From Plumapathes pennacea (Eukaryota; Cnidaria; Anthozoa; Antipatharia; Myriopathidae): a DNA stretch of 64,000 bases. Numbering within the stretch: the first letter of the stretch is position 1; the number at the start of each line of letters is the position of its first letter. The stretch lies in contig OZ038470.1 in assembly GCA_964036295.1 (NCBI GenBank), forward strand, positions 16,374,436 to 16,438,435, written 5' to 3'. The position numbers and the translations under genes were made by a program. A model generated the notes under the pieces. That model was not told where the DNA came from, did not search any database, and saw only the letters and a list, made by a program, of their open reading frames with translations. Of the stretch, positions 2,917 to 48,439 are shown piece by piece.

Positions 2917-5900
2917 CTAGTTCATGGGCTTACAAGCAGAAGGTGACAACATCTTGACGGAGCCTTGAATACCAGCGCGAAAATCTGCCCACTTTTTGAC
3001 ATCCCCTTCAAAGCCATGACACGAACGCGACATTTCGCTAATCTGATCCGCTGAAAGAACGTGATCCCACACATTCAGGTCTGTGAGTTCCCCGATGTAG
3101 CATTGAGATGCTTCAAAACCGCCGCCGACAGTGTCTTGGTCTTGTCCAATCACAAGTACCCCTGTGGGATTGATCACGTGACCTTTCTTGAGATCCACGC
3201 CACCTCCTTGGAGCACGCCGTCTCTGTAGAATTTATATTCGCCTTTCACGTTTTCCCAACTAGCGCAAACGTGGTGCCAGGAGCCGTCTCCTGTGTCAGT
3301 AAAGTTGGATGTCCTGCAATATTGAAAAGTATAACCAAACGCATTTGTACTCAAGTGAATTTCTACGTCAAGGCAAGGTTTGCTAAAACATATAGTAGGC
3401 AGGCTCGATACTCCAGGAAATATCGCTTCTTAGTAGAAAGGGAAAATAAAGTGCCCTCCTAACAGGTAGAAAAAAATAAATTCGCGCCCTGATTTCTTTA
3501 CATGGTAGTCAGAGCGTAAAATGAAAAATTATAAAGTTAATGTACCCTTTACTTTCATCCATGACGAGATGTATTTCACCACCACCGTTTCCAAGAACGA
3601 TTCCGTTGCCATTTCTCAAGTTTTTTGCGGCGTAACTAAACACGTATTTCATAGAGGCCGTTTCCGTTGTTCGCACCCGGTAACACACAGTAAAATTGTT
3701 GCTTAGCAACAGTCCTTGATGGATGACATAGTCTGTAGTTGTTTCCTTGGTGAAATTGAGGTCGAAAGAGGTTGGATCAGCTGTGAAATGAGAGATAAAA
3801 GGCTGTTATAAAAGCCAGCGAAATATTGATCCACAATGAGCACAAACGGTGATTCTCTTTTGTTAATTCAGTAAAGATGCGCGTTCCTATTGGTCAGCGG
3901 AGACATTTACAGAAGCTCAACCGGTATACAGTCAGAATTTTTATAGGAAATCTCAGTTATTTATTTGCAGAAGGCACTAGAAGAAGTTAGGCCCAGCTCT
4001 TTCCACCTCACGCACAGCAAACGTACGTTTTCATTTTTACACACTCGCACATATACAAATAATCACAAATAATTTGTAAAAACAATTATTACATAACCCT
4101 CTTAGTAACGTGCAAGAAATCCCTTAGTTACTAACGAGCAAAACAAGTGCTATTACATAGCGGTACGGCGGGGCCTAACACAATTTGGCATCAGGATGAG
4201 AACGGACGTTCGTTTGATGCTCAACGGGCTGGGAAAATTTTAATATAAAGATCCTCGATGTTCTCGTTGTTTCCAGGGTTAAAATGTTTGTAAGTGCCAA
4301 GAATGCCGAACGATTTTCTGTCCACAAAAGTCACTAAAGCATACAGTTTAGCTCTGTAATTCACCAGCCCCTTCCTAAATTGAAAATCGGTTTTAACAAA
4401 TTATGCGCACCTTACGTTTGAATAGAACAGCACTTTTGTGCATAACAAGAACTCTTAGCTGTGTTAATGCTGCGCCCCTTTTACTCGCGTAAATACATTA
4501 CCTCGGACAATAAAAAAGACTATTGATTTCGATCTACATGAAATATTCATAACACAATTTGTCCATACCAGATATACCAATTGCGCTCTGCAAAAGGGGA
4601 CAGCAGGTAAATCGAAGAGCACAAAGAAAACTGAAGTTATTGCTTAGTGAATTTTTCGAGCCCTATATTCTGACCTCTTTACTCGAGAATATTGACGGAA
4701 GCAATTTGAAGAAATAAGTAACTGGGTTCTACTTCGTGCAACATTGTTGGTGCAACTTGCAACATGGTGGTAATACACGCGATGTTACTGTGCAACTTGC
4801 AATGTAACATAGCTACGCGACCAGTTGCACTGAAAATGTTGTCCGCCTTTACTTCGTAGTGTGAATCATTTATATTGCGCTCGCACTCACGATCCCCTAT
4901 ACTAACGGCTAAAATGCTGTCATGTTTTTAAAGCAACTGACTTATTGACCGTGTCATGAAGAAGGAGAGAGCAGGTGTCTTTTATTTTGCTATAAAAGTT
5001 TCGTCACATCACGAAAATTCAGCGCGTCTTGTTTCTCCGTTGTCAGTTTTAATTTCAAGTTCAGTCCTCTTTTTACCCGTCCGTTAAACTGTTGTTATTG
5101 ACGATTTCGTACGATTACTTCCGAATGAATTGTGCGATAGAAACCTTTATTTAGACGCGATTATTGTAAAAATCGTACAGCTTACAGGTTCGTGGTAAGT
5201 GGGACTAGTTAAAAAGCAATGAGTGGATTTTTGAGAAAAACAATGTTATGGGGAATTGAAAACAGCTCACCCGTTTCGCATTTCTTTCCGATGAATCCCG
5301 GAGGACATTTGCACATAAAGTCGTCACGAGCATACAGAGCGATGCATTTCCCTCCCTCAGCACAGGGATTTTCGGAGCAAGGAGTCTACCAAGAGAAATA
5401 ATGTGCCAGTTAAGACATTGCGCAAAAAAAATATCTGCACGAAACGGGATCAGTACTCTTGAAGCACCAGGGATTTATTATCTTTTTTCGTTTATATTAT
5501 TTATTTATTTATCATCTATTTATTTAGTTACTTTCTCTTGAATTTGAGTTTTGAAAGTTTAAAAACGAAGGCACGTCGTGTTTACGGTGTCCATGATTTT
5601 GCTTGGAATAACAGTCAATTTGAAGATAAAATACTCAGAATTTCTGCGAGCTACTATATAAGATAATCAGTGTATGAATTCTACAAACTTCCAACCTCTG
5701 ATATGAATTCAGCAGGTACTTACGTAGATGCTGTAGTGATGGAAACGTTGACTTGGTTCAAACTTGTTGGACGAGTTGTACTTATCAGAGGCCAGGAGCT
5801 CGCACAGAATATGCTTGTTAGCGTGTTCCGCCACATTGAAGGAGAAACAAGACACAGCGCGAAGACAAGCGAACATACAATCCTCGATGTCATTCACCAA

Positions 5901-6080
5901 ACTTGATCCACCTTGGCTAACATTGAGGTAGTGAAACGGATGTTTAACAAACTTTGCGTGGTAAATTCCCAGAACGCCATCTCTGGTGAGACCTTTGGCA
6001 CACAGAACGTGTTGTTTGGACAGTAAGTGTACTGCAAAAACGCACCCGAATGTCAGAAAGAATCTTAACACTCCTGCCAT
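2917..6080 (-). CDS. Secreted PAN-EGF-pentraxin protein, copy U1 (intact)
   Basis: Four coding exons on the minus strand: 6080-5724, 5385-5271, 3780-3546 and 3382-2917 (TAG). All introns are GT-AG and the phases join cleanly to 390 residues. Residues 1-28 are a signal peptide (hydrophobic core [13 protein letters not shown]). Residues 29-119 form a PAN/apple-like domain (Cys68, 72, 78, 93). Residues 120-157 form an EGF domain with six Cys (122, 127, 133, 144, 146, 155). Residues 158-390 form a pentraxin domain with the conserved Cys pair 190/275, HVCASW near the family signature, and the calcium-loop motif GQDQDTVGG at 315-323 with Glu326 and Gln329. Known pentraxins are secreted calcium-dependent pattern-recognition or synaptic proteins; the PAN-EGF-pentraxin combination suggests an extracellular binding protein. 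The gene is tail to tail with the GTF2H2 3' end. Confidence 0.85.
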
Positions 6081-6530
6081 GATGGAGTCAAAAAAAGTCT
6101 TAAGAAACTAGCTATGGTACACTCCCTTTTATCATGAATCCTCAGCCAATGAGAAAAGAAGAAACACTAAATTACTTTGTGTGTCCCAGTCACCTAAGGC
6201 GAGAATCGAGTTAAATCGGTCGCCTGTTGAGTTTTTGTGGTCTCGCATTTTTATTGATTCCTGTCATGATGGAGTGAAAAAAAGTCTTAATCAACTAGCT
6301 ATGGTATACTCCCTTCTACCATGACTCTTTTGTGTTGTGTCTCAGCTAATGGGAAAAAAGGAACATTGTAATTACTTTGTGTGTGTTTTGTGTATCTCCC
6401 CGCAGTCGCCTGAGTACCCTGCGAACAGAACCACCTGTTCGCCTAAGGCGAGGATTGAGTTACATCGTCGCTTGTTGAGTTTTTTGTGCTCTCGTATTTT
6501 TATTGATTCTCAATATTTCGAAATTTGAAT
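6081..6530 (-). promoter_or_regulatory. Promoter of U1 pentraxin gene, tandemly repeated (2 copies)
   Basis: Just upstream of the ATG (minus sense) lie a TATA-like gtatacc/gataaaa stretch, an ATTGG (CCAAT) box (plus-strand ccaat at 6146-6150) and the near-palindrome TCGCCTAAGGCGA. The block, including the start-codon context, is repeated: copy A runs to about 6262 and copy B covers about 6263-6520. The distal copy keeps an ATG that opens a short upstream frame. Promoter function is inferred from position and motifs. Confidence 0.5.
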
Positions 6531-6652
6531 GAGAATCGGCTGAAGCGGATTATTTATACACAGCAGCGGCAACAATGTTCTTCATTTGAATGCGTGTACC
6601 CTAGTGCAAACCGTTTTCCTACTGTACGGGAAAGCGGAATTCAAACTTCCAC

Positions 6653-6683
6653 TTCCGTTTTCCTCAAAAATTGGAAAACGGAA
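6653..6683. other. Perfect 11-bp hairpin
   Basis: TTCCGTTTTCC and GGAAAACGGAA form a perfect inverted repeat around a 9-nt loop, inside a ttcc/ggaa-rich stretch that also has ETS-like ccggaa and cttcct motifs. It recurs in the matching positions of U3, U4 and U5, with substitutions in some copies. Confidence 0.6.
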
Positions 6684-6803
6684 TTTGAACTTCCCGATTC
6701 GCGTTTTCAGTTTCCGATTTATTGAGATTTCCGTTTCTCGCCAACCGGAAAAATGTTAGCACTTCCTGTCGTGATGAGAAAGCCTGGAAACTAAATACCC
6801 AAA

Positions 6804-6980
6804 ATGGCGGCTTTGGAACATATTCTTAATGAGCGCTTTGTCCGCAGTTTTATTCTTGAGGAAAATAGCCATAAAGACCTTCTTGTGGTAATCTTACCGA
6901 ATGTTTGTAGCGAACTAAAAATACATCAAAAGCGAGTTTTTATAGATATGGTTGCAACACTTTTTTATTCCTTTTTTTAA
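6804..6980 (+). CDS. Small conserved ORF (MAALEHIL), unit U1
   Basis: A 58-residue frame starts in aaaATGGCGGC, a YY1/TISU-like start context, preceded by ETS-like motifs. The peptide begins MAALEHILNERFVRSF and includes KDLLVVILPN. It reads like a real N-terminal exon rather than random sequence, but I do not recognise the family. The U5 copy (43081-43260) is fully open, whereas U3 and U4 carry disruptions, so it may be the remnant of a first exon whose gene was lost when the cassette formed. Confidence 0.35.
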   Translation: MAALEHILNERFVRSFILEENSHKDLLVVILPNVCSELKIHQKRVFIDMVATLFYSFF

Positions 6981-9458: not shown

Positions 9459-12400
9459 CTAGTTCATAGGCTTACAAGCAGAAGGTGACAACATCTTGAC
9501 AGAGCCTTGAATACCAACGCGAAAGTCTGCCCACTTTTTGACATTCCCTTCAAAGCCATGACACGAACGCGACATCTCGCTAATCTGATCCGCTGAAAGA
9601 ACTTGATCCCACACATTCAGGTCTGTGAGTTCCCCGATGTAGCATTGAAATGCTTCGAAACCGACAGTGTCTTGGTCTTGTCCAATCACAAGCACCCCTG
9701 TGGGATCGATCACGTGACCTTTCTTAAGATCCACGCCACCTCCTTGGAGCACGCCGTCTCTGTAGAATTTATATTCGCCTTTCACGTTTTCCCAACTAGC
9801 GCAAACGTGGTGCCAGGAGCCGTCTGCTGTGTCAATAAAGTTGGATGTCCTGCAATATTGAAAAGTATAACCAAACGCATTTGTACTCAAGTGAATTTCT
9901 ACGTCTAGGCAAGGTTTGCTAAAACGCATAATAGGCAGGCTCGATACTCCAGGAAATATCGCTTCTTAGTAGAAAGGGAAAATATAGTGCCCTCCTAACA
10001 GGTAGAAAAAAATAAATTTGTGCCCTGATTTCTTTACATGGTAGTGAGCGCGTAAAAAGAAAAATTATAAAGTTAATGTACCCTTTACTGTCATCCACGT
10101 CGAGACGTATTTTACCACCACCGTTTCGAAGAGCGATTCCGTTGCCATCTCTCGATCCTTTTGCGGCGTAACTAAACACGTAGTTATTAGAGGCCGGTTC
10201 CGTTCTTCGCACCCGGTAACACACAGTAAAAGCGTTGCTTAACAACAGTCCTTGATGGATGACATAGTCTGTAGTTGTTTCCTTGGTGAAATTGAGGTCG
10301 AAAGAGGTTGGATCAGCTGTGAAATGAGAGATAAAAGGCTGTTATAAAAGCCAGCGAAATATTGATCCACAATGAGCACAACGGTGATTCTCTTTTGTTA
10401 ATTCAGTAAAGATGCGCGTTCCTATTGGTCAGCGGAGACATTTTACAGAAGCTCAACCGGTATCCAGTCAGAGTTCTTATAGGAAATCTCAGTTACTTGC
10501 AGAAGGCACTAGAAGAAGTTAGGCCCAGCTCTTTCCACCTCACGCACAGCAAACGTACGTTTTCATTTTTACACACTCGCACATATACAAATAATCACAA
10601 ATAATTTGTAAAACAATTATTACATAACCCTCTTAGTAACGTGCAAACAATCCCTTAGTTACTAACGAGGAAAACAGCTGCTATTATGTAGCGGTACGCC
10701 GGGGCCTAACAAAATTTGGCATCAGGATGAGAACGGACGTTCGTTTGATGCCCAACGGGCTGGGAAAATTTTAATATAAAGCTCTCGGTGTTCTCGTTGT
10801 TTCCAGGGTTAAAATGTTTGTCATTGCCAAGAATACCGAAAGATTTTCTGTGCACAAAAATCACTAAAGCATACAGTGTTTAGTTTCTGTAATTCGCCAG
10901 CCCCTTGCTACATTGAAAATCGGTTTTAACAAATTATGCACACCTTACGTTTGAATAGAACAGCACTTTTGTGCATAACAAGAACTCTTAGCTGTGTTAA
11001 TGCTGCACCCCTTTGACTCGCGTAAATACATTACTTCGGAGAATAAAAAGACTATTGATTTCGATCGACATGAAATATTCATAACGCAATTTCTCCATAC
11101 CAGATACACCAATCGCGCTTTCCAAAAGGGGACAGCAGGTGAATCGAAGAGCACAAAGAAAACTGAAGTTATTCCTTAGTGGATTTTTCGAGCCCCATAT
11201 TCTGACCTCTTTACTCGAGAATATTAACGGAAGCAATTTGAAAAAATAAGTAACTGGGTTCTACTTCGTGCAACATTGTTGGTGCAACTTGCAACATGGT
11301 GGTAATGCACGCGATGTTACTGTGCAACTTGCAATGCAACATAGCTGCGCGACCAGTTGCACTGAAAATGTTGTCCGCCTTTACTTCGTGGTGTGAATCA
11401 TTTATATTGCGCTCGCCCTCATGATCCCCTATACTAACGGCTAAAATGCTGCCATGTTTTTAAAGCAACTGACTTATTGATCGTGTCATGAAGAAGGAGA
11501 GAGCAGGTGCCTTTTATTTTGCTATAACAGTTTCGTCACATCACGAAAATTCAGCGCGTCTTGTTTCTCCGTTATCAGTTTTGATTTGAAGTTCAGTCCT
11601 CTTTATTCCCGTTCGTTTAACTGATGTTATTGACGATTTCCTACGATCACTTCTGAATGAATTGTGCGATAGATAACCTTTATTTAGACGCGATTATTGT
11701 AAAAGTCGTACGGCTTACAGGTTCGTGGTAAGTGGGACTAGTTAAAAAGCAATGAGTGGATTTTTGAGAAAAACAATGTTATGGGGAATTGAAAACAGCT
11801 CACCCGTTTTGCATTTCTTTCCGATGAATCCCGGAGGACATTTGCACATAAAGTCGTCACGAGCATACAGAGCGATGCATTTCCCTCCCTCAGCACAGGG
11901 ATTTTCGGAACAAGGAGTCTACCAAGAGAATAATGTGCCAGTTAAGACATTGAACAAAAAATCCTGCACGAAACGGGATCAGTACTCTTGAAACTGCTGG
12001 GTATTTTTTTTTTTTGTTTGTTTACATATTTTTATGTCTTTTCTGTTTAGTTGTTTAGTTTTTCCTCTTGACCTTACGTTTTTAAAGTTTAAAAACGAAG
12101 TAACGTCGTATTTACGGTGTCATTAGGCTAGGGATAACAGTCAATTTGATAGTAAAATACTCAGAATTTCTGCGAGCTGAATTTATCCATTATAACTATA
12201 AAATAATCGGTGTATTAATTCTACTAAACTTCCGACCTCTGATACGAACTCAGCAGGTACTTACGTAGATACTGTAGTGATGGAAACGTTGACTTGGTTC
12301 AAACTTGTCGGACGAGTTGTACTTATCAGAGGCCAGGAGCTCGCAGAGAATATGCTCGTTAACGTGTTCCGCCACATTGAAGGAGAAACAAGACACAGCG

Positions 12401-12621
12401 CGAATACAAGCGAACATACAATCCTCGATGTCATTCACCAAACTTGATCCACCTTGACTAACATTGAGGTAGTGAAACGGATGTTTAACAAAGTTTGCGT
12501 GGTAAATTCCCAGAGCGCCATCTCTGGTGAGACCTTTGGCACACAGAACGTGTTGTTCGGACAGTAAGTGTACTGCAAAAACGCACCCGAATGTCAGAAC
12601 GAATCTTAACACTCCTGTCAT
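9459..12621 (-). CDS. Secreted PAN-EGF-pentraxin protein, copy U2 (intact)
   Basis: Exons 12621-12265, 11918-11804, 10316-10082 and 9918-9459 join in frame to 388 residues. The architecture is as in U1. The signal peptide starts [11 protein letters not shown]. In the pentraxin domain the calcium loop reads [13 protein letters not shown], two glycines shorter than in U1, so the spacing between Asp/Gln/Asp and the next Glu differs. The exon-3 variable segment reads TEPASNN ... KGSRDGNG. Exon 1 belongs to a sequence group shared with U5 and U6, not with U1 and U3. No break is seen in frame or splice sites. Confidence 0.85.
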
Positions 12622-21300: not shown

Positions 21301-24300
21301 AATTTCCCGTTATGTTTAATATTGATCACATCTCTTTTTTTGACAGGCACTTAAACAGAAAACTATCCGTTGCTCTGTCATTGGTCTGGCGGCGGAGGTG
21401 AAAGTTTGCCGGGTATTATGTACTGAAACTCAAGGTACTGTACTATTGACGTCTGATATTCGTACCGGCAGCGTTGATGACGGCGATGATGACGATGGTC
21501 AAGACAACAATGACGACGATGATTGTGTCGATGATGGTGTTTATGATGGCGATGATTGTGACGGTGCTGTGACGATGAAATAGAGTGGTAAAGTGATGAC
21601 GTCATAAAAATTTTTTTTCGGAAATAATGGACTTTGCGCAATTCTTCGGAATGGTCTATCTAAAAAAAGTTCACACAGAAAAAATTGGCTCTTTAGTGCA
21701 TTAAACAGCTGAGATATAGGCTTTTGAAGTTCAAATTGCTTCATACTAAACCCTCTTATTTGGTGTTGGTTCCTTTTATTTGGAACCAACACTAAATAAG
21801 AGAGTTTAGTTAAGACTATCTCGAACTTTAAAATTCTCTATCTTCGCTTTCAGTAGGGCTAGCGATTTGAAATTTTTCACAGGTTCTTTCAGCAGCTGTG
21901 TATATCGCATGATGTGGTTTTGAGGTTTAAATGGAAAAGTTTGCAAAATGATGACGTCACACTTTACCACTATTAGTTACGATGATGAAAAGACGGTGGC
22001 GATGGTTGAGACAGTTATGATGACGGTGATGACAGTGCTGTTGATTACGATTATGACGGTGACGTTGTTGACAGAGTTTTCACATGACTATCGAAAGCAA
22101 ACGTATAATTGCTTTGATTTTACATTTGCTGCACTTTTGGATTGGTCTATACAAGTTTGGCTGCATTCCTGGCCAATCAGGAAAAAAAGCGAAACCAGAT
22201 TGCGGTCTGCTCACGTAAGCAAATGGCGTTTCTTCTTTTTGATTAGTCTCCTCTACAAAGTTAAACCAATTGCAAATTACTTCAATTTGTTTGATTTTGC
22301 GGACAGTCGTCCGAAAACCGTTCTAACCAGAATGGAGATTACAAGCCATCTCCAAGGTTCACACATTGTGATGCCGTAAGTCTCTTGTTTTTTCTCTCCC
22401 TCTCCAGGAAGTTATGGGGTCATTTTGGATGAAAGTCACTTCAAGGAGTTGTTGATGCAGCACATTGTACCACCCGCGGCAAACGTGAGCAAACTCGTAT
22501 TATGCTGCAATCCGAAAAGAGCAAACAAACAAACAAACAAACAAACAAACGAGGCGATGTCCGGCGTGGGCTGAATGATAAATTCTAAGATTATTTTTGT
22601 TTTACAGGCAGATACGGAAGCTGCTCTCATAAGGATGGGTAAGAATTAATGCTTTTCCTTCTTTTCCTTCTTCTTCTTCTCTCCCTCCCCTCCCCCTCTT
22701 TGTTTTTGCTTGCTTATGTATAGGTACTGTAATCAGCATACTCATAAGTTTAAACTGTTGTTGTTGTTGTTGTCGCTTTTGTTGTCGCTGTTGTTGTTCT
22801 TGTTGTCGCTGTTGTCGTCGTCGTCGTCGTCGTTGTTGTTGTTGTTCGTTTTGTACAGGTTTTCCACAGCACATGTCAGACGGCCCAGCATCCCTCTGCA
22901 TGTGGTAAGAGCAGTTTGGATGTTTCATCTTTGAATGTACTGACTAGAATTCGGAACTAAATACTGTGCCTCTTTTCCATCCTCAGAAATAAACTGATGT
23001 ATTCAACTTGTTTTGTAATATTCAGTCATTTAGATAGCAAGAATATTCAAGGCTTCACCAAAACTGGCTTCTTCTGCCCTCAGGTGTGTGTGTAACGTGT
23101 GCCTGTGGCGTGTAGCGTGAGTGTGTAGCGTGAGTGTGTAGCGTGAGCGTGTAGCGTGAGTGTGTAGCGTGAGTGTGTAGCGTGAGTGTGTAGCGTGAGT
23201 GTGTAGCGTGAGTGTGTAGCGTGTGTGTGTAGCGTGTGTGTGTAGCGTGAGTGTGTAGCGTGAGTGTGTAGCGTGAGTGTGTAGCGTGAGTGTGTAGCGT
23301 GAGTGTGTAGCGTGAGTGTGTAGCGTGAGTGTGTAGCGTGAGTGTGTAGCGTGTGAGTGTAGCGTGAGTGTGTAGCGTGAGTGTGTAGCGTGAGTGTGTA
23401 GCGTGTGTGTGTAGCGTGAGTGTGTAGCGTATAATGTAATTTGCATGTATTGTGTGCGTACGTGTTTTTGAGCATATCTTGATAAGGGATTTACTGTTTG
23501 TGGCTAAGGTTTTCTCGTTCTTTATGTTATTTCTCTCTTCAGTGTAAAAGCAAGTATTGTGATTTGCCAGTGGAGTGTAAAGTTTGCGGTAAGAACTGCC
23601 TCAAGCAACCTCCTTTTCAAGTTAAGGACGCAAAAAAACGTAACTGCCTTCTTCTTGGTGTTGCCCTTATTCTCGTCCCAGTTCTTTCTTCTTTCTTTCT
23701 CTTCCTCTTAATCTTTCGCTCTTGTTTTTGTTTCTGCCTTGTTCCTGCTCTCCTTTCTCTCTCTCTCGCTCTCTCTTTCAATCCGCAAGCAAGCTCGTCT
23801 CCATTCTTTTCTTTGTCCGGTCTTGATTTTCTTTGGAGCAACACGGTGCTCACTGATCACCTGAGTGTCTTTCACCCCTTGTTCTTGCTCTTGTCCTTGC
23901 TCTTGTTCTTGTTCTTGCTTTTGCTCTTGTTCTTGCTCTTGTTTTTGTTTTTGTTCTTGCTCTTGTTGTTGCTGTCGCTCTCTTTTTCAATCTGCTAGCT
24001 TGTTTCTATTCTTTTCTCCGTCTCGTTTTGATTTTAGCTCGGACAACACAGTGCTTGCTGATCAACATTCTGTTCATCTCTGTAGGTCTCACGTTGGTGT
24101 CTGCTCCGCATCTGGCCCGCTCCTACCAGCACCTCTTCCCATTAGCACCTTTTGTTGAAATCACTGCACCAGGAGAAGAGGACGAGACTTTATCAAGGTA
24201 CTGAAAGAGCCATGTGAAATGGAATTGTCGAAATTGCGCGGAGAATGTTTCTGTAGACAGTGCGATGCTGCTAGAATTTCATGTTCTCGGTCACAATTCT

Positions 24301-26511: not shown

Positions 26512-29500
26512 CTAGTTCATGGGCTTACAAGCAGAAGGTGACAACATCTTGACGGAGCCTTTAATACCAGCGCGAAAATCTGCCCACTTTTTGACATTCC
26601 CTTCAAAGCCATGACACGAACGCGACATCTCGCTAATCTTATCCGCTGAAAGAACGTGATCCCACACATTCAGGTCTGTGAGTTCCCCGATGTAGCATTG
26701 AGATGCTTGGAAATCGCCGCCGACAGTGTCTTGGTCTTGTCCAATCACAAGTACCCCTGTGGGATCGATCACGTGACCTTTCTTGTGATCCACGCCACCT
26801 CCTTGGTGCACGCCGTCTCTGTAGACTTTATATTCGCCTTTCACGTTTTCCCAACTAGCGCAAACGTGGTGCCAGGAGCCGTCTGCTGTGTCAGTAAAGT
26901 TGGATGTCCTGCAATATTGAAAAGTATAACCAAACGCATTTGTACTCAAGTGAATTTCTACGTCTAGGCAAGGTTTGCTAAAACGTATAGTAGGCAGGCT
27001 CGATACTCCAGGAAATATCGCTTCTTAGTAGAAAGGGAAAATAAAGTGCTTTCTTAACAGGTAGAAAAAAAAAAAAAAAAAAAAAAATTGCGCCCCGATT
27101 TCTTTACATGGTAGTCAGCGCGTAAAAAGAAAAATTATAAAGTTAATGTACCTCTTAGTGCCATTCACGAAGAGACTTATTTTACCACCACCGTTTCCAA
27201 GAACGATTCCGTTGCCATCTGTCGATTCTTTTGCGGCGTAACTAAACACGTAGTTATCATCGGTCGGTTCCGTTGTTCGCACCCGGTAACACACAGTAAA
27301 AGCGTTGCTTAGCAACAGTCCTTGATGGATGACAAAGTCTGTAATTGTTTCGTTGGTGAAATTGAGGTCGAAAGAGGTTGGATCAGCTGTGAAATGAGAG
27401 ATAAAAGGCTGTTATAAAAGGCAGCGAAATATTGATCCACAATGAGCACAAACGGTGATTCTCGTTTGTTAATTCAGTAAAGATGCGCGTTCCTATTGGT
27501 CAGCGGAGACATTTACAGAAGCTCAACCGGTATCCAGTCAGAGTTTTTATAGGAAATCTCAGTTATTTATTTGCAGAAGGCACTAGAAGAGGTTAGGCCC
27601 AGCTCTTTCCACCTCACGCACAGCAAACGTACGTTTTCATTTTTACACACTCGCACATATACAAATAATCACAAATAATTTGTAAAAACAATTATTACAT
27701 AACCCTCTTAGTAACGTGCAAGAAATCCCTTAGTTACTAACGAGCAAAACAAGTGCTATTACATAGCGGTACGGCGGGGCCTAACACAATTTGGCATCAG
27801 GATGAGAACGGACGTTCGTTTGATGCTTAACGGGCTGGGAAAATTTTAATATAAAGATCCTCGATGTTCTCGTTGTTTCCAGGGTTAAAATGTTTGTCAG
27901 TGCCAAGAATGCCGAACGATTTTCTGTCCACAAAAGTCACTAAAGCATACAGTTTAGCTCTGTAATTCACCAGCCCCTTCCTAAATTGAAAATCGATTTT
28001 AACAAATTATGCGCACCTTACGTTTGAATAGAACAGCACTTTTGTGCATAACAAGAACTCTTAGCTGTGTTAATGCTGCGCCCCTTTTACTCGCGTAAAT
28101 ACATTACCTCGGACAATAAAAAAGACTATTGATTTCGATCGACATGAAATATTCATAACACAATTTGTCCATACCAGATACACCAATTGCGCTCTGCAAA
28201 AGGGGACAGCAGGTGAATCGAAGAGCACAAAGAAAACTGAAGTTATTGCTTAGTGGATTTTTCGAGCCCTATATTCTGACCTCTTTACTCGAGAATATTG
28301 ACGGAAGCAATTTGAAGAAATAAGTAACTGGGTTCTACTTCGTGCAACAATGTTGGTGCAACTTGCAACATGGTGGTAATACACGCGATGTTACTGTGCA
28401 ACTTGCAATGCAACATAGCTGCGCGACCAGTTGCACTGAAAATGTTGTCCGCCTTTACTTCGTAGTGTGAATCATTTATATTGCGCTCGCCCTCATGATC
28501 CCCTATACTAACGGCTAAAATGCTGTCATGTTTTTAAAGCAACTGACTTATTGACCGTGTCATGAAGAAGGAGAGAGCAGGTGTCTTTTATTTTGCTATA
28601 ACAGTTTCGTCACATCACGAAAATTCAGCGCGTCTTGTTTCTCCGTTGTCAGTTTTAATTTCAAGTTCAGTCCTCTTTTTACCCGTCCGTTAAACTGTTG
28701 TTATTGACGATTTCCTACGATCACTTCCGAATAAATTGTGCGATAGAAACCTTTATTTAGACGCGATTATTGTAAAAATTGTACAGCTTACAGGTTCGTG
28801 GTAAGTGGGACTAGTTAAAAAGCAATGAGTGGATTTTTGAGAAAAACAATGTTATGGGGAATTGAAAACAGCTCACCCGTTTCGCATTTCTTTCCGATGA
28901 ATCCCGGAGGACATTTGCACATAAAGTCGTCACGAGCATACAGAGCGATGCATTTCCCTCCCTCAGCACAGGGATTTTCGGAGCAAGGAGTCTACCAAGA
29001 GAAATAATGTGCCAGTTAAGACATTGCGCAAAAAATATCTGCACGAAACGGGATCACTACTCTTGAAGCACCAGGGATTTATTATCTTTTTTCGTTTATA
29101 TTATTTATTTATTTATCATCTATTTATTTAGTTACTTTCTCTTGAATTTGAGTTTTGAAAGTTTAAAAACGAAGGCACGTCGTGTTTACGGTGTCCATGA
29201 TTTTGCTTGGAATAACAGTCAATTTGAAGATAAAATACTCAGAATTTCTGCGAGCTACATATCTATAACTATAAGATAATCAGTGTATGAATTCTACAAA
29301 CTTCCAACCTCTGATATGAATTCAGCAGGTACTTACGTAGATGCTGTAGTGATGGAAACGTTGACTTGGTTCAAACTTGTTGGACGAGTTGTACTTATCA
29401 GAGGCCAGGAGCTCGCAGAGAATATGCTTGTTAGCGTGTTCCGCCACATTGAAGGAGAAACAAGACACAGCGCGAAGACAAGCGAACATACAATCCTCGA

Positions 29501-29693
29501 TGTCATTCACCAAACTTGATCCACCTTGGCTAACATTGAGGTAGTGAAACGGATGTTTAACAAACTTTGCGTGGTAAATTCCCAGAACGCCATCTCTGGT
29601 GAGACCTTTGGCACACAGAACGTGTTGTTTGGACAGTAAGTGTACTGCAAAAACGCACCCGAATGTCAGAAAGAATCTTAACACTCCTGCCAT
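26512..29693 (-). CDS. Secreted PAN-EGF-pentraxin protein, copy U3 (intact)
   Basis: Exons 29693-29337, 28991-28877, 27386-27152 and 26977-26512 join to 390 residues. The exon-1 protein is identical to U1 across all 119 residues, and the EGF exon is also identical. The pentraxin domain differs: the variable segment reads TEPTDDN ... KESTDGNG, and in the calcium loop the Glu expected at residue 326 is Gln (GGDFQASQ). Histidines replace Leu at two sites of the second exon ([12 protein letters not shown]). All splice sites and the stop are intact. The poly-A/T run at 27068-27087 lies in an intron. Role as for U1. Confidence 0.85.
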
Positions 29694-32896: not shown

Positions 32897-35800
32897 CTAG
32901 TTCATGGGCTTACAAGCAGAAGGTGACAACATCTTGACGGAGCCTTTAATACCAGCGCGAAAATCTGCCCACTTTTTGACATTCCCTTCAAAGCCATGAC
33001 ACGAACGCGACATCTCGCTAATCTGATCCGCTGAAAGAAACTGATCCCACACATTCAGGTCTGTGAGTTCCCCGACGTAGCATTGAGATGCTTCGAAACC
33101 GCCGCCGACACTGTCTTGGTCTTGTCCAATCACAAGCTTCCCTGTGGGATCGATCACGTGACCTTTCTTGAGATCTACGCCACGTCCTTGGAGCACGCCG
33201 TCTCTGTAGACTTTATATTCGCCTTTCACGTTTTCCCAACTAGCGCAAACGTGGTGCCAGGAGCCGTCTGCTGTGTCAGTAAAGTTGGATGTCCTGCAAT
33301 ATTGAAAAGTATAACCAAACGCATTTGTACTCAGGTGAATTTCTACGTCTAGGCAAGATTTGTTAAAACATATAGTAGGCAGGCTCGATACTCCAGGAAA
33401 TGTCGTTTCTTAGTAGAAAGGGAAAATAAAGTGCTTTCCTAACAGGTAGAAAAAAAAAATAAATTTGCGCCCCGATTTCTTTACATGGTAGTCAGTGTGT
33501 AAAAAGAAAAATTATAAAGTTAATGTACCTTGCACTGGCATCCACGTAGAGACGTATTTCACCACCACCGTTTCCAAGAATGATTCCGTTGCCACTTATC
33601 GATCCTTTTGCGGCGTAACTAAACACGTATTTCTTAGAGGCCGATTCCGTTGTTCGCACCCGGTAACACACAGTAAAAGCGTTGCTTAGCAACAGTCCTT
33701 GATGGATGACAAAGTCTGTAGTTGTTTCCTTGGTGAAATTGAGATCGAAAGAGGTTGGATCAGCTGTGAAATGAGAGATAAAAGGCTGTTATAAAAGCCA
33801 GCGAAATATTGTTCCATAATCAGCACAAACGGTGATTCTCGTTTCTTAATTCAGTATACACAAGATGCGAGTTTCTATTGGTGAGCGGAGACATTTTACA
33901 GAAGCTCAACCGGTATCCAGTCAGAGTTTTTATAGGAAATCTCAGTTATATACTTGCAGAAGGCACTAGAAGAAGTTAGGCCCAGCTCTTTCCACCTCAC
34001 GCACAGCACAGCAAACGTACGTTTTCATTTTTTACACACTCGCACATATACAAATAATCACAAATAATTTGTAAAAACAATTATTATATAACCCTCTTAG
34101 TAACGTGCAAACAATCCCTTAGTTACTAACGAGCAAAACAAGTGCTATTACGTAGCGGTACGGCGGGGTCTAACAAAATTTGGCATCAGGATGAGAACGG
34201 ACGTTCGTTTGATGCCCAACCGGCTGGGAAAATTTTAATTCAAAGATCCTTGGTGTTCTCGCTGTTTCCGGGGTTAAAATGTTTGTCACTGCCAAGAATG
34301 CCGAACGATTTTCTGTGCACAAAAATCACTAAAGCATACAGTTTAGTTTCTGTAATTCGCCAGCCCCTTGCTAAATTGAAAATCGACTTTAACAAATTAT
34401 GCCCGCCTTACGTCTGAATAGAACAGCACTTTTGTGCATAACAAGATCTCTCAGCTGTGTTAATGCTGCACCCCTTTGACTCGCGTAAATACATTACGTG
34501 GGACAATAAAAAGACTCAGTATTGAGTTCGATCACAATGAAATATTTATAACGCAATTTGTCCATACCAGATACACTAATTGCGCTCTGCAAAAGGGGAC
34601 AGCAGGTGAATCGAAGAGCACAAAGAAAACTGAAGTTATTCCTTAGTGGATTTTTCGAGCCCTATATTCTGACCTCTTTACTAGAGAATATTAACGGAAG
34701 CCTTTAAAGAAATAAGTAACTGGGTTCTACTTCGTGCAACATTGTTGGTGCAACTTGCAACATGGTAGTAATACACGCGATGTTACTGTGCAACTTGCAA
34801 TGCAACATAGCTACGCGACCAGTTGCACTGAAAATGTTGTCCGCCTTTACTTCGTAGTGTGAATCATTTATATTACGCTCGCCCTCATGATCCCCTATAC
34901 TAACGGCTAAAATGCTGTCATGTTTTTAAAGCAACTGACTTATTGACCGTGTCATGAAGAAGGAGAGAGCAGGTGTCTTTTATTTTGCTATAACAGTTTC
35001 GTCACATCACGAAAATTCAGCGCGTCTTGTTTCTCCGTTATCAGTTTTGATTTGAAGTTCAGTCCTCTTTATTCCCGTTCGTTTAACTGTTGTTATTGAC
35101 GATTTCCTACGATCACTTTCAAATAAATTGTGCGATAGATAACCTTTATTTAGACGCGATTATTGTAAAAATCGTACAGCTTACAGGTTCGTGGTAAGTG
35201 GGACTAGTTAAAAAGGAATGAGTGGATTTTTGAGAAAAACAATGTTATGGGGAATTGAAAACAGCTCACCCGCTTGGCATCTCTTTCCGATGAATCCCGG
35301 AGGACATTTGCACATAAAGTCGTCACGAGCATACAGAGCGATGCATTTTCCTCCCTCAGCACAGGGATTTTCGGAACAAGGAGTCTACCAAGAGAAATAA
35401 TGTGCCAGTTAAGACATTGCGCAAAAAAATATCTGCACGAAACGGGATCAGTACTCTTGAAACACCAGGGATTTATTATTTTTTTTCGTTTATATTATTT
35501 ATTTATTTATCATCTATTTATTCAGTTACTTTCTCTTGAATTTGAGTTTTGAAAGTTTAAAAACGAAGGAACGTCGTGTTTACGGTGTCCATGATTTTGC
35601 TTGGAATAACAGTCAATTTGAAAGTAAAATAAGTAAAATTTCTGCGAGCTACATATCTATAAGATAATCAGTGTATGAATTTTACAAACTTCCAACCTCT
35701 GATATGAATTCAAAAGGTACTTACGTAGATGCTGTAGTGATGGAAACGTTGACTTGGTTCAAACTTGTTGGACGAGTTGTACTTATTAGAGGCCAGGAGC

Positions 35801-36070
35801 TCGCAGAGAATATGCTTGTTAGCGTGTTCCGCCACATTGAAGGAGAAACAAGACACAGCGCGAAGACAAGCGAACATACAATCCTCGATGTCATTCACCA
35901 AACTTGATCCACCTTGGCTAACATTGAGGTAGTGAAACGGATGTTTAACAAACTTTGCGTGGTAAATTCCCAGAACGCCATCTCTGGTGAGACCTTTGGC
36001 ACACAGAACGTGTTGTTCGGACAGTAAGAACGCACCCGAATGTCAGAAAGAATCTTAACACTCTTGCCAT
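32897..36070 (-). pseudogene. PAN-EGF-pentraxin gene, copy U4 (two disabling lesions)
   Basis: Expected exons: 36070-35725, 35384-35270, 33763-33529 and 33362-32897. Exon 1 lacks 11 nt in the signal-peptide region (near 36029), which shifts the frame and soon gives a stop. Independently, the acceptor of exon 4 is changed from AG to AA (plus-strand tgttaaaaca at 33361-33370, where other copies have tgctaaaac). Exons 2 and 3 remain open, with their own variable-site residues (TESASKK ... KGSISGNG). The Cys-bearing stretch after the lost acceptor also has a Pro to Ser change. Most likely a recent pseudogene; exons 2-4 could still donate sequence to neighbours by conversion. Confidence 0.8.
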
Positions 36071-39174: not shown

Positions 39175-42100
39175 CTAGTTCATGGGCTTACAAGCAGAAG
39201 GTGACAACATCTTGACAGAGCCTTGAATACCAGCGCGAAAATCTGCCCACTTTTTGACATTCCCTTCAAAGCCATGACACGAACGCGACATTTCGCTAAT
39301 CTGATCCGCTGAAAGAACGTGATCCCACACATTCAGGTCTGTGAGTTCCCCGATGTAGCATTGAAATGCTTGGAAACCGCCGCCGAAAGTGTCTTGCTCT
39401 TGTCCAATCACAAGCACCCCTGTGGGATCGATCACGTGACCTTTCTTGAGATCCACGCCACCTCCTTGGAGCACGCCGTCTCTGTAGAATTTATATTCGC
39501 CTTTCACGTTTTCCCAACTCGCGCAAACGTGGTGCCAGGAGCCGTCTGCTGTGTCATTAAAGTTGGATTTCCTGCAATATTGAAAAGTATAACCAAACAC
39601 GTTTATACTGAACTTGAAGGTTTACTAAAACGCAAAATAGTCAGATTCGTTACTCTAGGAAGTATCGCTTCTTAGTAGAAAAGGAAAATAGAGTGTCCCT
39701 CCCATCAGGTAAAAAAAGACTTAATTTACGACCCAAATATTTAAATATGGCAGTCAGCGCGTAAACAATTAGAAGGATAATTTACCTTCCACTGGAATCC
39801 ACTGTAATTATCATTTCACCACCACCGTTTGCAAAAAGGATTCCGTTGCCATCGCTTGATTCTTTGGCGGCGTAACTGAACACGTATCTTTCATAGGTCG
39901 GTTCCGTTGTTCGCACCCGGAAACATACAGTGAAAGCGTTGCTTAGCAACAATCCTTGATGGATGACAAAGTCTGTAGTTGTTTCCTTGGTGAAATTGAG
40001 GTCGAAAGAGGCTGGATCAGCTGTGAAATGATAGATAAAAGGCTGTTATAAAAGCCAGCGAAATATTGTTCCAAAATGAGCACAAACGGTAATCCTCGTT
40101 TCTTAATTTAGTATACACAAGATGCGCGTTCCTATTGGTCAGCGGAGACATTTTACAGATACTCAACCTGTATCCAGTCAGAGTTTTTATAGGAAATCTC
40201 AGTTATTTACTTGCAGAAGGCACTAGAAGAAGTTAGGCCCAGCTCTTTCCACCTCACGCACAGCAAACGTACGTTTTCTTTTTTACACACTTGCACATAC
40301 ACAAATAATCACAACTAATTTGTAAAAACAATTATTACATAACCCTCTTAGTAACGTGCAAACAATCCCTTAGTTACTAACGAGCAAAACAACTGCTATT
40401 ACGTAGCGGTACGCCGGGGCCTAACAAAATTTGGCATCAGGATGAGAACGGACGTTCGTTTGATGCCCAACGGGCTGGGAAAATTTTAATTCAAAGATCC
40501 TCGGTGTTCTCGTTGTTTCCAGGGTTAAAATGTTTTTCAGTGCCAAGAATGCCGAAAGATTTTCTATGCACAAAAATCACTAAAGCATACAGTTCAGTTT
40601 CTGTAATTTGCCAGCCCCTTGCTAAATTGAAGATCGGTTTTAATTAACAAATTATGCGCGCCTTACGTCTGAATAGAACAGCACTTTTGTGCATAACAAG
40701 AACTCTCAGCTGTGTTAATGCTGCACCCCTTTGACTCGCGTAAATACATTACCTTGGACAATAAAAAGACTCAGTATTGATTTTGATCGATATGAAATAT
40801 TCATAACGCAATTTGTCCATACCAGATACACAAATCGCGCTTTGCAAAAGGGGACAGCAGGTGAATGGAAGAGCACAAAGAAAACTGAAGTTATTCCTTA
40901 GTGAATTTTTCGAGCCCTATATTCTGACCTCTTTACTCGAGAATATTGACGGAAGCAATTTGAAGAAATAAGTAACTGGGTTCTACTTCGTGCAACATTG
41001 TTGGTGCAACTTGCAACATGGTGGTAATACACGCGATGTTACTGTGGAACTTGCAATGCAACATAGCTGCGCAACCAGTTGCACTGAAAATGTTGTCCGC
41101 CTTTACTTCGTGGTGTGATTCATTTATATTTCGCTCGCCCTCATGATCCCCTATACTAACGGCTAAAATGCTGTCATGTTTTTAAGACAACTGACTTATT
41201 GACCGTGTCATGAAGAAGGAGAGAGCAGGTGCCTTTTTATTTTGCTATAACAGTTTCGTCACATCACGAAAATTCAGTGCGTCTTGTTTCTCCGTTATCA
41301 GTTTTGATTTGAAGTTCAGTCCTCTTTATTCCCGTCCGTTTAACTGTTGTTATTGACGATTTCCTAGGATCACTTCCGAATGAATTGTGCGATAGATAAC
41401 CTTTATTTAGACGCGATTATTGTAAATGTCGTACAGCTTACAGGTTCGTGGTAAGTGGGACTAATTAAAAAGCAATGAGTGGATTTTTGAGAAAAACAAT
41501 GTTATGGGGAATTGAAAACAGCTCACCTGCTTCGCATTTCTTTCCGATGAATCCCGGAGGACATTTGCACATAAAGTCGTCACGAACATAAAGAGCGATG
41601 CATTTCCCTCCCTCAGCACAGGGATTTTCGGAACAAGGAGTCTACCAAGAGAATAAGGTGCCAGTTAAGACATTGAACAAAAAAATCCTGCACGAAACGG
41701 GATCAGTACTCTTGAAACTCCTGGGAATTTTTATTTTTTTTTTTGTTTACATATTTTTATGTCTTTTCTGTTTAGTTGTTTAGTTTTTCCTCTTGACCTT
41801 ACGTTTTTAAAGTTTAAAAACGAAGTAACGTCGTACTTACGGTGTCATTATGCTAGGGATAACAGTCAATTTGATAGTAAAATACTCAGAATTTCTGCGA
41901 GCTGAATTTTGCCATTATAACTATAAAATAATTGGTGAATTAATTCTACTAATCTTCCGACCTCAGATACGAACTCAGCAGGTACTTACGTAGATGCTGT
42001 AGTGATGGAAACGTTGACTTGGTTCAAACTTGTCGGACGAGTTGTACTTATCAGAGGCCAGGAGCTCGCAGAGAATATGCTCGTTAACATGTTCCGCCAC

Positions 42101-42346
42101 ATTGAAGGAGAAACAAGACACAGCGCGAAGACAAGCGAACATACAATCCTCGATGTCATTCACCAAACTTGATCCACCTTGGCTAACATTGAGGTAGTGA
42201 AACGGATGTTTAACAAAGTTTGCGTAGTAAATTCCCAGAGCGCCATCTCTGGTGAGACCTTTGGCACACAGAACGTGTTGTTCGGACAGTAAGTGTACTG
42301 CAAAAACGCACCCGAATGTCAGAACGAACCTTAACGCTCCTGCCAT
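39175..42346 (-). CDS. PAN-EGF-pentraxin gene, copy U5 (exon-4 acceptor remodelled)
   Basis: Exons 42346-41990, 41641-41527 and 40020-39786 are intact and in phase; exon 3 uses a gtaaat donor rather than gtacat. The start of exon 4 differs from all other copies. With the usual acceptor (exon to 39624) it is 16 nt short and hits TAA. An AG 17 nt further in (exon 39607-39175) restores the frame, at the cost of the KPC segment and its Cys. Exon 4 otherwise is intact to the stop, with Gln at the position of calcium-loop Glu326 (GGGFQAFQ). Intron 3 is also diverged here. It is either a functional variant with an altered loop or an early pseudogene. Confidence 0.6.
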
Positions 42347-44421: not shown

Positions 44422-44933
44422 AGGAAACATTCAAGAAGGTATGGATTGAAGCATTTCCCAGTCTTTTAGTATTCGCGGAATCGGGAATGCCGAAAAAAAA
44501 AAAAAAAAACAAAAAACAAAACCGCACCAAAAGAGATCACTATTGACAGCAAACAAGAAACGTTGTTTACGTCGCTCTACTGTTTATTACATTAAAAGTT
44601 ATTTACACAGAAAGAAAAGGCGCTCTTCGGTCTGTGGCACCGCGAAAAGATGTTTCGACGTCACTTCCGTCATTGACATCACTTCTGTTGGCCAGCGTTT
44701 GTCGTCATTACCATCTAACTTGAGGTCAAGTTTCACCTCGTGTGCCAAGTCTCGTTTTCCTTGTGCACAACTTATGTTATAGAAAATGCATTGGAATAGC
44801 TTATACTTGAGTAACAGTCTAAGTTTTGATTTACTTCGCTATATCTGCTATATCTTGAGTTTTCTGTTTTTGCAAACGTTGCACGAACTACGAAAATTAT
44901 AACAGCCTGTGGTAGGCCTTCAGTGACGTCATC
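44422..44933. other. Spacer of unit U6 (shortened)
   Basis: The stretch holding the catccggg repeats is deleted: sequence passes from about 44480 directly into the poly-A at 44487-44507. No gene is seen. Confidence 0.6.
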
Positions 44934-45236
44934 AAACGTGGCGTGTTTTACACAGTGAAAGTCAACACTAGATCAACTCTAGACATTTTTAGTTTCAAAA
45001 TTAGCCACAAGTGCCTTTATCTTTAGTCAAATTTCTTCCGGTTATTTTCCTTTGTCGGGATTGGTGCGCCTGCAGTCAGACTCGTGCATTTGGTGTTGCA
45101 TTTGCTAAACAAAAGTATGGCTGTATATAATCGTTTCGATTCGGAGTGCTAGTAATATGGAAATGCTGTGCTAACGCATTAGTACAGAAAAGAGAGGAAA
45201 GTACGATCTTCAGTTACAATAACTTTTAGCTCGATG
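44934..45236 (+). repeat. Inverted-repeat arm, left, unit U6
   Basis: Slightly truncated at its outer end. There is no right partner; segment R' follows instead. Confidence 0.8.
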
Positions 45237-45241
45237 TTTAG

Positions 45242-48200
45242 CTAGTTCATGGGCTTACAAGCAGAAGGTGACAACATCTTGACGGAGCCTTCAATACCAG
45301 CGCGAAAATCTGCCCACTTTTTGACATTCCCTTCAAAGCCATGACACGAACGCGACATCTCACTAATCTGATCCGCTGAAAGAACTTGATCCCACACATT
45401 CAGGTCTGTGAGTTCCCCGATGTAGCATTGAGATGCTTCGAAACCGCCGCCGACAGTGTCTTGCTCTTGTCCAATCACAAGCACCCCTGTGGGATCGATC
45501 ACGTGACCTTTCTTGAGATCCACGCCACCTCCTTGGAGCACGCCGTCTCTGTAGAATTTGTATTTGCCTTTCACGTTTTCCCAACTACCGCAAACGTGGT
45601 GCCAGGAGCCGTCTGCTGTGTCAATAAAGTTGGATTTTCCTGCAATATTGAAAAGTATAACCAAACGCATTTGTACTCAAGTGAATTTCTACGTCTGGGC
45701 AAGATTTGCTAAAACGCATAATAGGTAGGCTTGATACTCCAGGAAATATTGCTTCTTAGTAGAAAGGGAAAATAAAGTGCCCTCCTAACAGGCAGAAAAA
45801 AATAAATTTGCGCCCCGATTTCTTTACATGGTTGTCAGCGCGTAAAAAGAAAAATGATAAAGTTAATGTACCCTCTACTGCCATCCACGTCGAGACTTAT
45901 TTCACCACCACCGTTTACAAGAGTGATTCCGTTGCCATATCTCGCTCCGTTTACGGCGTAACTAAACACGTAGTTATTAGAGGCCGGTTCCGTTGTTCGC
46001 ACCCGGTAACACACAGTAAAAGCGTTGCGTAGCAACAGTCCTTGATGGATGACATAGTCTGTAGTTGTTTCCTTGGTGAAATTGAGGTCGAAAGAGGTTG
46101 GATCAGCTGTGAAATGAGAGATGAAAGGCTGTTATAAAAGGCAGCGAAATATTGATCCACAATGAGCACAAACGGTGATTCTCGTTTGTTAATTCAGTAA
46201 ATATGCGCGTTCCTATTGGTCAGCGGAGACATTTTACAGAAGCTCAACTGGTATCCAGTCAGAGTTTTTATAGGAAATCTCAGTTATTCACTTGCAGAAA
46301 GCACTAGAAGAAGTTAGGCCCAGCTCTTTCCACCTCACGCACAGCACAGCAAACGTACGTTTTCATTTTTTACACACTCGCACATATACAAATAATCACA
46401 ACTAATTTTTAAAAGCAATTATTACATAACCCTCTTAGTAACGTGCAAACAATCCCTGAATTACTAACGAGCAAAACAAGTGCTATTACGTAGCGGTACG
46501 CGGGGACCTAACAAAATTTGGCATCAGGATGAGAACGGACGTTCGTTTGATGCCCAACGGGCTGGGAAAATTTTAATTCAAAGATCCTCGGTGTTCTCGT
46601 AATTGTTTCTAGGGTTAAAATGTTTGTCAGTGCCAATAATGCCGAAAGATTTTCTGTGCACAAAAATCACTAAAGCATACAGTTCAGTTTCTGTAATTTT
46701 CCAGCCCCTTGCTAAATTGAAGATCGGTTTTAACAAATTATGCGCACCTTACGTTTGAATAGAACAGCACTTTTGTGCATAACAAGAACTCTTGCTATGT
46801 TAATGCTGCACTACTTTGACTCGCGTAAATACATTACCTCGGACAATAAAAAGACTATTGATTTCGATCGACATGAAATATTCATAACGCAATTTGTCCA
46901 TACCAGATACACCAATTGCGCTCTGCAAAAGGGGACAGCAGGTGAATGGAAGAGCACAAAGAAAACTGAAGTTATTCCTTAGTGAATTTTTCGAGCCCTA
47001 TATTCTGACCACTTTACTCGAGAATATTGACGGAAGCAATTTGAAGAAATAAGTAACTGGGTTCTACTTCGTGCAACATTGTTGCAGCAACTTGCAACAT
47101 GGTGGTAATACACGCGATGTTATTGTGCAACTTGCAATGCAACATAGCTGCGCGACCAGTTGCACTGAAAATGTTGTCCGCCTTTACTTCGTAGTGTGAA
47201 TCATTTATATTGCGCTCGCCCTCATGATCCCCTATACTAACGGCTAAAATGCTGTCATGTTTTTAAAGCAACTGACTTATTGAGCGTGTCATGAAGAAGG
47301 AGAGAGCAGGTGTCTTTTATTTTGCTATAACAGTTTCATCACATCACGAAAATTCAGCGCGTCTTGTTTCTCCGTTATCAGTTTTGATTTGAAGTTCAGT
47401 CCTCTTTATTCCCGTCCGTTTAACTGTTGTTATTGACGATTTCCTACGATCACTTCCGAATGAATTGTGCGATAGATAACCTTTATTTAGACGCGATTAT
47501 TGTAAGAGTCGTACAGCTTACAGGTTCGAGGTAAGTGGGACTAGTTAAAAAGCATAGAGTGGATTTTTGAGAAAAACAATGTTATGGGGAATCGAAAACA
47601 GCTCACCCGTTTCGCATTTCTTTCCGATGAATCCCGGAGGACATTTGCACATAAAGTCGTCACGAGCATACAGAGCGATGCATTTCCCTCCTTCAGCACA
47701 GGGATTTTCGGAACAAGGAGTCTACCAAGAGAATAATGTGCCAGTTAAGACATTGAACAAAAAAATTCTGCACCAAACGGGATCAGTACTCTTGAAACTC
47801 CTGGGAATTTTTTTTTTGTTTTTTGTTGTTTTGTTTTTGTTTACATATTTTTATGTCTTTTTTGTTTAGTTGTTTAGTTTTTCCTCTTAACCTTACGTTT
47901 TTAAAGTTTAAAAACGAAGTAACGTCGTACTTACGGTTCATTATGCTAGGGATAACAGTCAATTTGATAGTAAAATACTCAGAATTTCTGCGAGCTGAAT
48001 TTATCCATTATAACTATAAAATAATTGGTGTATTAATTCTACTAATCTTCCGACCTGAGATACGAACTCAGCAGGTACTTACGTAGATGCTGTAGTGATG
48101 GAAACGTTGACTTGGTTCAAACTTGTCGGACGAGTTGTACTTATCAGAGGCCAGGAGCTCGCAGAGAATATGCTCGTTAACATGTTCCGGCACATTGAAG

Positions 48201-48439
48201 GAGAAGCAAGACACAGCGCGAAGACAAGCGAACATACAATCCTCGATATCATTCACCAAACTTGATCCACCTTGGCTAACATTGAGGTAGTGAAACGGAT
48301 GTTTAACAAAGTTTGCGTGGTAAATTCCCAGAGCGCCATCTCTGGTGAGACCTTTGGCACACAGAACGTGTTGTTCGGACAGTAAGTGTACTGCAAAAAC
48401 GCACCCGAATGTCAGAACGAATCTTAACACTCCTGCCAT
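45242..48439 (-). pseudogene. PAN-EGF-pentraxin gene, copy U6 (1-nt frameshift)
   Basis: Exons 48439-48083, 47721-47607, 46106-45872 and 45708-45242. Exons 1-3 are intact with correct splice sites. Exon 4 is 467 nt, one longer than in U1, because of an extra base in a T-run (plus strand 45635-45638; minus sense AGGAAAATCC). The frame shifts soon after FQYC and meets TGA, removing the second conserved pentraxin Cys and the calcium loop. The rest of exon 4 remains open in the original frame, so the lesion is recent or could be an assembly error. Exon-3 variable residues are unique (AVNGARYGNG). Confidence 0.7.

Follow-up and report, generated by a model that had tools for sequence, protein, structure and literature searches.

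Whether the copies of a tandem pentraxin gene array of Plumapathes pennacea, alike over most of their length and different in a short part of one exon, owe this difference to selection for different ligands is the question raised by this locus. The window, which is the whole stretch of 64,000 nucleotides analysed (C9:16374436-16438435), belongs to a genome of 290 Mb in 24 contigs. Between 2917 and 48439 it contains six tandem copies (U1-U6) of one four-exon gene on the minus strand, with the exon order signal/PAN, EGF and two pentraxin exons:

5724..6080, minus strand: U1 exon 1, signal-peptide-like start and PAN-like domain, 119 aa (from splice sites and frame)
5271..5385, minus strand: U1 exon 2, EGF-like domain (Pfam EGF)
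3546..3780, minus strand: U1 exon 3, part one of the pentraxin domain, with the hypervariable codons 198-236 in its second half
2917..3313, minus strand: U1 exon 4, part two of the pentraxin domain, calcium loop QDQD and stop (Pfam Pentaxin)
9459..12621, minus strand: U2 gene, exons 12265-12621, 11804-11918, 10082-10316 and 9459-9849
26512..29693, minus strand: U3 gene, exons 29337-29693, 28877-28991, 27152-27386 and 26512-26908
32897..36070, minus strand: U4, frame-broken copy, exons 35725-36070, 35270-35384, 33529-33763 and 32897-33293
39175..42346, minus strand: U5 gene, exons 41990-42346, 41527-41641, 39786-40020 and 39175-39571
45242..48439, minus strand: U6 copy, exons 48083-48439, 47607-47721, 45872-46106 (with the usual donor) and 45242-45639

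U1 matches the Pentaxin family of Pfam (PF00354) at 124.6 bits over residues 167-356 (curated cut-off 25), which is a pentraxin family match, and its exon 2 matches Pfam EGF at 36.4 bits (cut-off 21.5); exon 1 shows a weak match to PAN_1, 18 bits, under the cut-off of 21.4. The Pfam scan of nine proteins or ORFs at E 0.01 gives no family for the eight other than U1, and Rfam gives 0 matches at gathering scores. In the genome search, no further pentraxin match lies beside the window among the best 150 of 172 candidates. A 13-nt tandem repeat is present in the window at 20-436 and 23032-23578, with one stretch pair 96% alike; it occurs at both places, so that spacer sequence from the left end of the array recurs in the larger gap between U2 and U3. 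The exon 1 start, actccatcatg.cagga, is found twice, upstream of U1 and at U1 (about 6090-6275 of the window), and resembles a local duplication of the 5' end.

The sequence-only reading of a six-copy array is right in its six tandem genes and their coordinates, but two of these copies carry frame defects. U1, U2, U3 and U5 are intact and show canonical splice sites. An 11-nt deletion in exon 1, within the part that encodes the signal peptide, puts U4 out of frame. In U6, exon 4 has one additional base at its start: the usual splice pair leads to a stop at codon 242, and the frame (365 aa) stays open only with an alternative GTAGAG donor that lies 7 nt upstream of the usual donor. The plainly intact copies are therefore four of six. 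U2 shows a 6-nt in-frame deletion in the second calcium loop, with the loss of two glycines. Nearest neighbours among the copies change along the gene, a mosaic similarity, and U5 contains a mosaic block, comprising the end of exon 3 and intron 3, which is nearest to a full-length paralogue on contig C2 (8.24 Mb).

The distribution of differences along the protein is very uneven. The PAN exon is near-invariant, as had been read, with U1 and U3 identical over the whole of exon 1, although the variable sites number 14 of 119 (besides the U4 deletion) and not about 11. The EGF exon was said to differ only at its last residues, which is incorrect: four of its 38 residues vary (138, 154, 156 and 157). 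High variability at residues 198-236 of exon 3 holds, at 25 of 39 positions over the six copies instead of about 22, with the framework residues GNGI and NGGG kept between the variable sites. The residues quoted for U1-U6 are also correct: V, D, F, Y, T and D at 230, R, R, T, I, S and R at 213, and E, D, G, A, S and G at 233. The site models and most of the selection counts exclude U4, and in the five-copy change counts U6 was read with one base omitted at the exon 3/4 junction. In these five copies 53 of the 100 inferred nonsynonymous changes are within the 39 codons 198-236, out of 367 (binomial p 1.2e-25), together with eight of the 36 synonymous changes (p 0.03). The split of 53 nonsynonymous and 8 synonymous changes in this segment vs 47 and 28 elsewhere gives a Fisher p of 0.0011. 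Compared with neutral site counts, the nonsynonymous share at 198-236 is significant and modest, with p 0.045, or p 0.01 when the transition bias of the introns is used.

Rates per segment (NG86, all six copies) show dS and dN of 0.034 and 0.024 in exon 1, 0.082 and 0.020 in exon 2, 0.060 and 0.037 in codons 158-197, 0.115 and 0.258 in codons 198-236, and 0.055 and 0.035 in exon 4. The six-copy dS at 198-236 is raised because the end of exon 3 and intron 3 of U5 are nearest to the C2 lineage; without U4 and U5 this segment has a dS of 0.050 and a dN of 0.225, and introns 3, 2 and 1 have 0.056, 0.042 and 0.129. Between U1, U2 and U3, dN is 0.226 vs a dS of 0.039 at 198-236 (w 5.8), with w 0.82 in exon 1 and 0.53 in exon 4. 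Codons 198-233 of these intact copies contain 49 nonsynonymous vs 1 synonymous differences, summed over the three pairs, and the pair U1-U2 shows 15.7 nonsynonymous to 0.3 synonymous at 198-236. In the five copies this segment has 0.59 nonsynonymous changes per nonsynonymous site, and the minimum counts per site in introns 2, 1 and 3 are 0.10, 0.21 and 0.32, so that its rate is 6x that of intron 2, 2.8x that of intron 1 and 1.8x that of intron 3. Exon 3 taken whole has a dN/dS of 1.58-1.62, hence not at or below 1. A synonymous divergence of the same size in exon 3 as in exon 1 had been put forward as evidence against selection. In U1-U3 it is indeed roughly equal (0.039 at 198-236 vs 0.027), and it differs once U5 is included; near equality is no refutation, because selection predicts exactly that.

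Codon site models (M1a vs M2a, own implementation) favour M2a for the five-copy coding sequence with 2dlnL 59.2, and eight sites are above 0.9: 200, 201, 211, 219, 221, 228, 230 and 233. With exons 3 and 4 alone 2dlnL is 36.6, site 235 is added and 200 is lost; without U6 it is 48.8, with sites 200, 201, 202, 211, 228, 230 and 233; and without the doubtful codons 234-237 it is 52.8. The null simulations (n=60, no positive selection, two trees joined as a mosaic, one start per fit and two for the real data) reach a highest 2dlnL of 14.5, and the gene-level result stands. Because 47 of the 60 null replicates also have some site flagged above 0.9, single-site posteriors are weak alone and need outside support.

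Such support was sought in the alignment with human C-reactive protein (CRP), in which five of the eight selected sites, 219, 221, 228, 230 and 233, correspond to L64, F66, S74, T76 and G79, and 235 to E81. The three other selected sites, 200, 201 and 211, align with T46, R47 and R58 (about 46-48 and 58), which are not pocket contacts. The choline contacts of CRP are Phe66 and Glu81, with Thr76 shaping the pocket, and its calcium is held by Asp60, Asn61, Glu138, Gln139, Asp140, Glu147 and Gln150, as given in the available text of PMC6503050. The claim that the variable region aligns with the ligand face of CRP is thus supported, and sharpened to L64, F66, S74, T76 and G79. The strict phosphocholine pocket F66/T76/E81 is absent from U1, U2, U3, U5 and U6, which show G, R, G, A and V at 221, V, D, F, T and D at 230, and K, K, K, G and R at 235, the U6 value of the last depending on the splice reading. 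E81 is the weakest of the three contacts because its match shifts one residue between two alignments.

A genome search with exon 3 leads to a second array, on contig C4 at 1.1 Mb, where pentraxin exons were found and the PAN and EGF exons have no match. More distant arrays are present on C9 at 12.5 Mb and on C10 at 6.5 Mb, and further ones at C2:8.2 (besides the P7 gene), C4:0.94, C7:3.4, C9:5.0, C9:7.0 and other places, among the best 150 of 172 candidates. Nine of the 12 C4 copies were used, one broken, one with a truncated exon 4 and one with a stop being left out. The C9 array at 12.5 Mb gave six exon pairs, with exons 3 and 4 matched by contig order and one exon 3 end cut off (L034); two exon-4 pieces lacking exon 3 (L036, L037) were left out. 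The C10 array contains six genes, and five of six were used from a fifth, more diverged array on C12, L043 being omitted as more divergent. A cluster of five pieces at C4:2.85 Mb (L044-L048) was considered as a further array and rejected, by eye, as too diverged for alignment. Two single-frame pentraxin matches of equal score and span, C1:40075050-40075592 and C1:40119370-40119912, are 44 kb apart; they probably represent a recent duplication of a gene that lacks the intron between exons 3 and 4. For the PAN exon, all of the best 150 of 262 candidates match, with a large cluster at C1:8.05-10.37 Mb, and a PAN exon followed by a similar EGF exon (by eye) is seen at C1:8.10 Mb (L052) and C11:1.80 Mb (L053). 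The PAN-EGF cassette seems common to many other genes.

In the C4 array w is 0.14 in exon 3 up to codon 197, 0.61 in its hypervariable part (e3b) and 0.27 in most of exon 4. M2a is favoured there with 2dlnL 20.4 and sites 230, 234 and 235; in C9 with 2dlnL 27.8 and four sites, the F66 and T76 equivalents and others near CRP 48 and 145; and in C10 with 2dlnL 19.4 and 17 sites, which include the equivalents of 64, 66, 74, 76 and 79 and many elsewhere. Averaged over e3b, dN/dS does not rise clearly above 1 (C4 0.61, C9 0.60, C10 1.05), so that only sites exceed 1 in these arrays. In a ranking of column variability over the four arrays, T76 is first (0.99), F66, N145 and S74 are next (0.96 each), and G79 and the CRP-48 column follow. 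When columns are drawn from the whole domain, the three CRP phosphocholine contacts have a permutation p of 5e-5 in the C9 and C10 arrays taken by themselves, which had no part in framing the pocket idea. In the C12 array the five sites are supported (p 0.0096) and the three contacts are not (p 0.088); the residues equivalent to N61 and D140 also vary there.

The calcium scaffold of the four arrays is largely fixed. N61, Q139 and D140 are invariant in all 26 copies and Q150 in 25; position 138 is D or E in 26 of 26; and at position 147 there is D or E in 21 copies, with Q, T or N in the other five, including U3 and U5. As a set the calcium ligands rank average (0.50) because E138 and E147 vary, and in the U array an insertion leaves D60 with no clear counterpart. 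The five pocket codons (64, 66, 74, 76 and 79) have a pN of 0.63 in U, 0.49 in C4, 0.51 in C9 and 0.45 in C10, and pS in the rest of the domain is 0.06, 0.24, 0.20 and 0.11, respectively. Their pN/pS is 3.7 in U, 0.72 in C4, 1.16 in C9 and 5.5 in C10, rough figures because sites are few and multiple hits occur; that of C4 is only 0.72 because its pocket pS is itself 0.67. The C4 and C9 values count against a uniform claim of pocket selection. The alternating strand positions 63, 65, 73, 75 and 77, which we infer to point inwards, show a pN of 0.14-0.19 vs 0.03-0.10 in the rest of the domain. Burial of the variable sites, which would speak against a binding role, is made unlikely by this strand alternation and the CRP alignment. 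Residues 301 and 305 in exon 4, equivalent to CRP-145 and CRP-149, are highly variable in several arrays, with a joint pN/pS of 11 in C10; a second pocket lip, where U2 lost its two glycines, may be diversifying too.

The same patterns bear on what else could have produced the variable segment. Under relaxed constraint the strand and loop at 198-236 would accept any residue and no selection would act, as the mean e3b dN/dS below or near 1 in three of four arrays and the frame defects in two of six window copies might suggest. It cannot, however, lift dN over the neutral level, as the dN of 0.226 vs dS of 0.039 in U1-U3 would demand; nonsynonymous change at 198-236 is above that of all three introns, the interleaved GNGI and NGGG persist, and variation is lower at the alternating strand positions; we regard this account as improbable. 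A little less credit goes to conversion from paralogues, by which older or imported e3b blocks, with homogenisation elsewhere, would give a seemingly fast evolution. The end of exon 3 and intron 3 of U5, nearest to the C2 paralogue, and the neighbours that switch along the gene agree with it, but import should also lift dS and intron 3, which without U4 and U5 are 0.050 and 0.056 beside a dN of 0.225. Import can be a supply route, and alone it does not explain the nonsynonymous excess. Synonymous change, slightly dense at 198-236 (8 of 36, p 0.03), is what a mutation hot spot confined to part of exon 3 would leave; against it, the neighbouring intron 3 is hardly raised without U5 (0.056), alternating positions have fewer replacements and the codons between variable ones are spared, so that a hot spot is very hard to credit.

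Selection on the pocket for purposes other than defence is of another kind, being compatible with a pocket-based explanation. Gamete-recognition, adhesion and allorecognition systems likewise diversify at ligand sites, and a role in gamete recognition, in adhesion to prey or substrate, or in allorecognition is a real though minority possibility, well ahead of the three mechanisms above. The part of PMC12960093 available considers pentraxin-domain proteins of coral larvae in connection with settlement and matrix remodelling; on the defence side, that of PMC6503050 treats CRP as a protein of host defence and Limulus CRP as a binder of phosphocholine and bacterial-type membranes.

Selected, pocket-focused replacement on a largely fixed calcium scaffold, through which the copies would bind different ligands, is the explanation that we consider probable, and we propose that it forms a germline repertoire. 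Selection for different ligands would be expected to leave just this trace, changing pocket residues on a calcium scaffold that stays largely fixed. The earlier claim of diversifying selection on a secreted recognition family is supported in its part on selection, through dN/dS, site models vs simulated nulls and replication in other arrays, and within this tandem multigene family positive selection centres on the binding site as placed by alignment. The array encodes predicted secreted PAN-EGF-pentraxin proteins; each copy would bind another surface ligand, such as phospho-head groups, glycans or other microbial, algal or self epitopes, with contact through the calcium-loop pocket, and the constant PAN, EGF and pentraxin framework would provide assembly and downstream effects. 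New pockets would come from duplication, point replacement under positive selection and short-block exchange between copies, and the outcome would be a germline-encoded set of soluble recognition proteins. How copies are produced and remain alike elsewhere is suggested by their tandem arrangement, by the exchange of blocks and by the constancy of PAN, EGF and exon 4. With somewhat less confidence, we favour the reading that at least four arrays independently diversified the same pocket positions (64, 66, 74, 76, 79 and in part 145/149), in a CDR-like manner, as a repertoire of soluble receptors. Immune or defence recognition, or that of symbionts, is the likeliest candidate role, as a first guess by analogy with the family.

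Several known systems resemble parts of this array. FREPs, VCBPs and Sp185/333 are germline-diversified secreted invertebrate recognition families, and their domains differ from those of this array; their diversity between individuals is known, and this array is represented by one genome only. Tachylectin-2 has a lectin fold other than pentraxin. Matches to Pfam and to PDB sequences show that the window proteins have the pentraxin domain of CRP and the short pentraxins (PF00354), with most of its calcium ligands; unlike CRP they have PAN-like and EGF domains in front, and unlike in human CRP the residues that fix phosphocholine vary, some copies also having another residue in place of E147. 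Limulus CRP has three homologous genes, whose products have identical chain ends (residues 1-44 and 206-218), but it is an arthropod system, and the available text of PMC6503050 mentions neither a PAN-EGF part nor pocket-focused selection. Coral tachylectin-2, a putative immunity gene, is likewise highly diverse in amino acids and under positive selection; several arrays go unmentioned in the accessible sections of PMC2880987. Cnidarian polydom is also secreted and unites pentraxin with PAN/Apple domains, but it is described, in the portion of PMC12549020 at hand, as a large multidomain matrix protein and not as a four-exon tandem array.

Pentraxins as such are known already, as are selection on coral immune lectins and the diversification of invertebrate receptors. 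Pocket-focused selection in pentraxin arrays was not found among the literature matches listed, as far as their available text goes, most subscription journals being outside the scope of the search; relative to this literature, a pocket-focused diversification of pentraxins, repeated over several arrays, would be new. If it is true, an early-branching animal has a defined soluble recognition set whose specificity residues can be named beforehand, pentraxins, usually seen as invariant pattern receptors, evolve in a repertoire-like manner, and exchange of the five residues should alter the ligand. This is relevant to the question of how cnidarians, which have no antibodies, discriminate microbes, symbionts and self.

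Outside the pentraxin loci, contig C24 shows, at 4629-6872 (L049-L051), a mitochondrial cox1 (table 4) that agrees with a cnidarian, hexacoral origin and is split by an intron with a LAGLIDADG-like frame; cox3 is located upstream of it, and nad4L and cox2 downstream, the gene names being assigned by eye.
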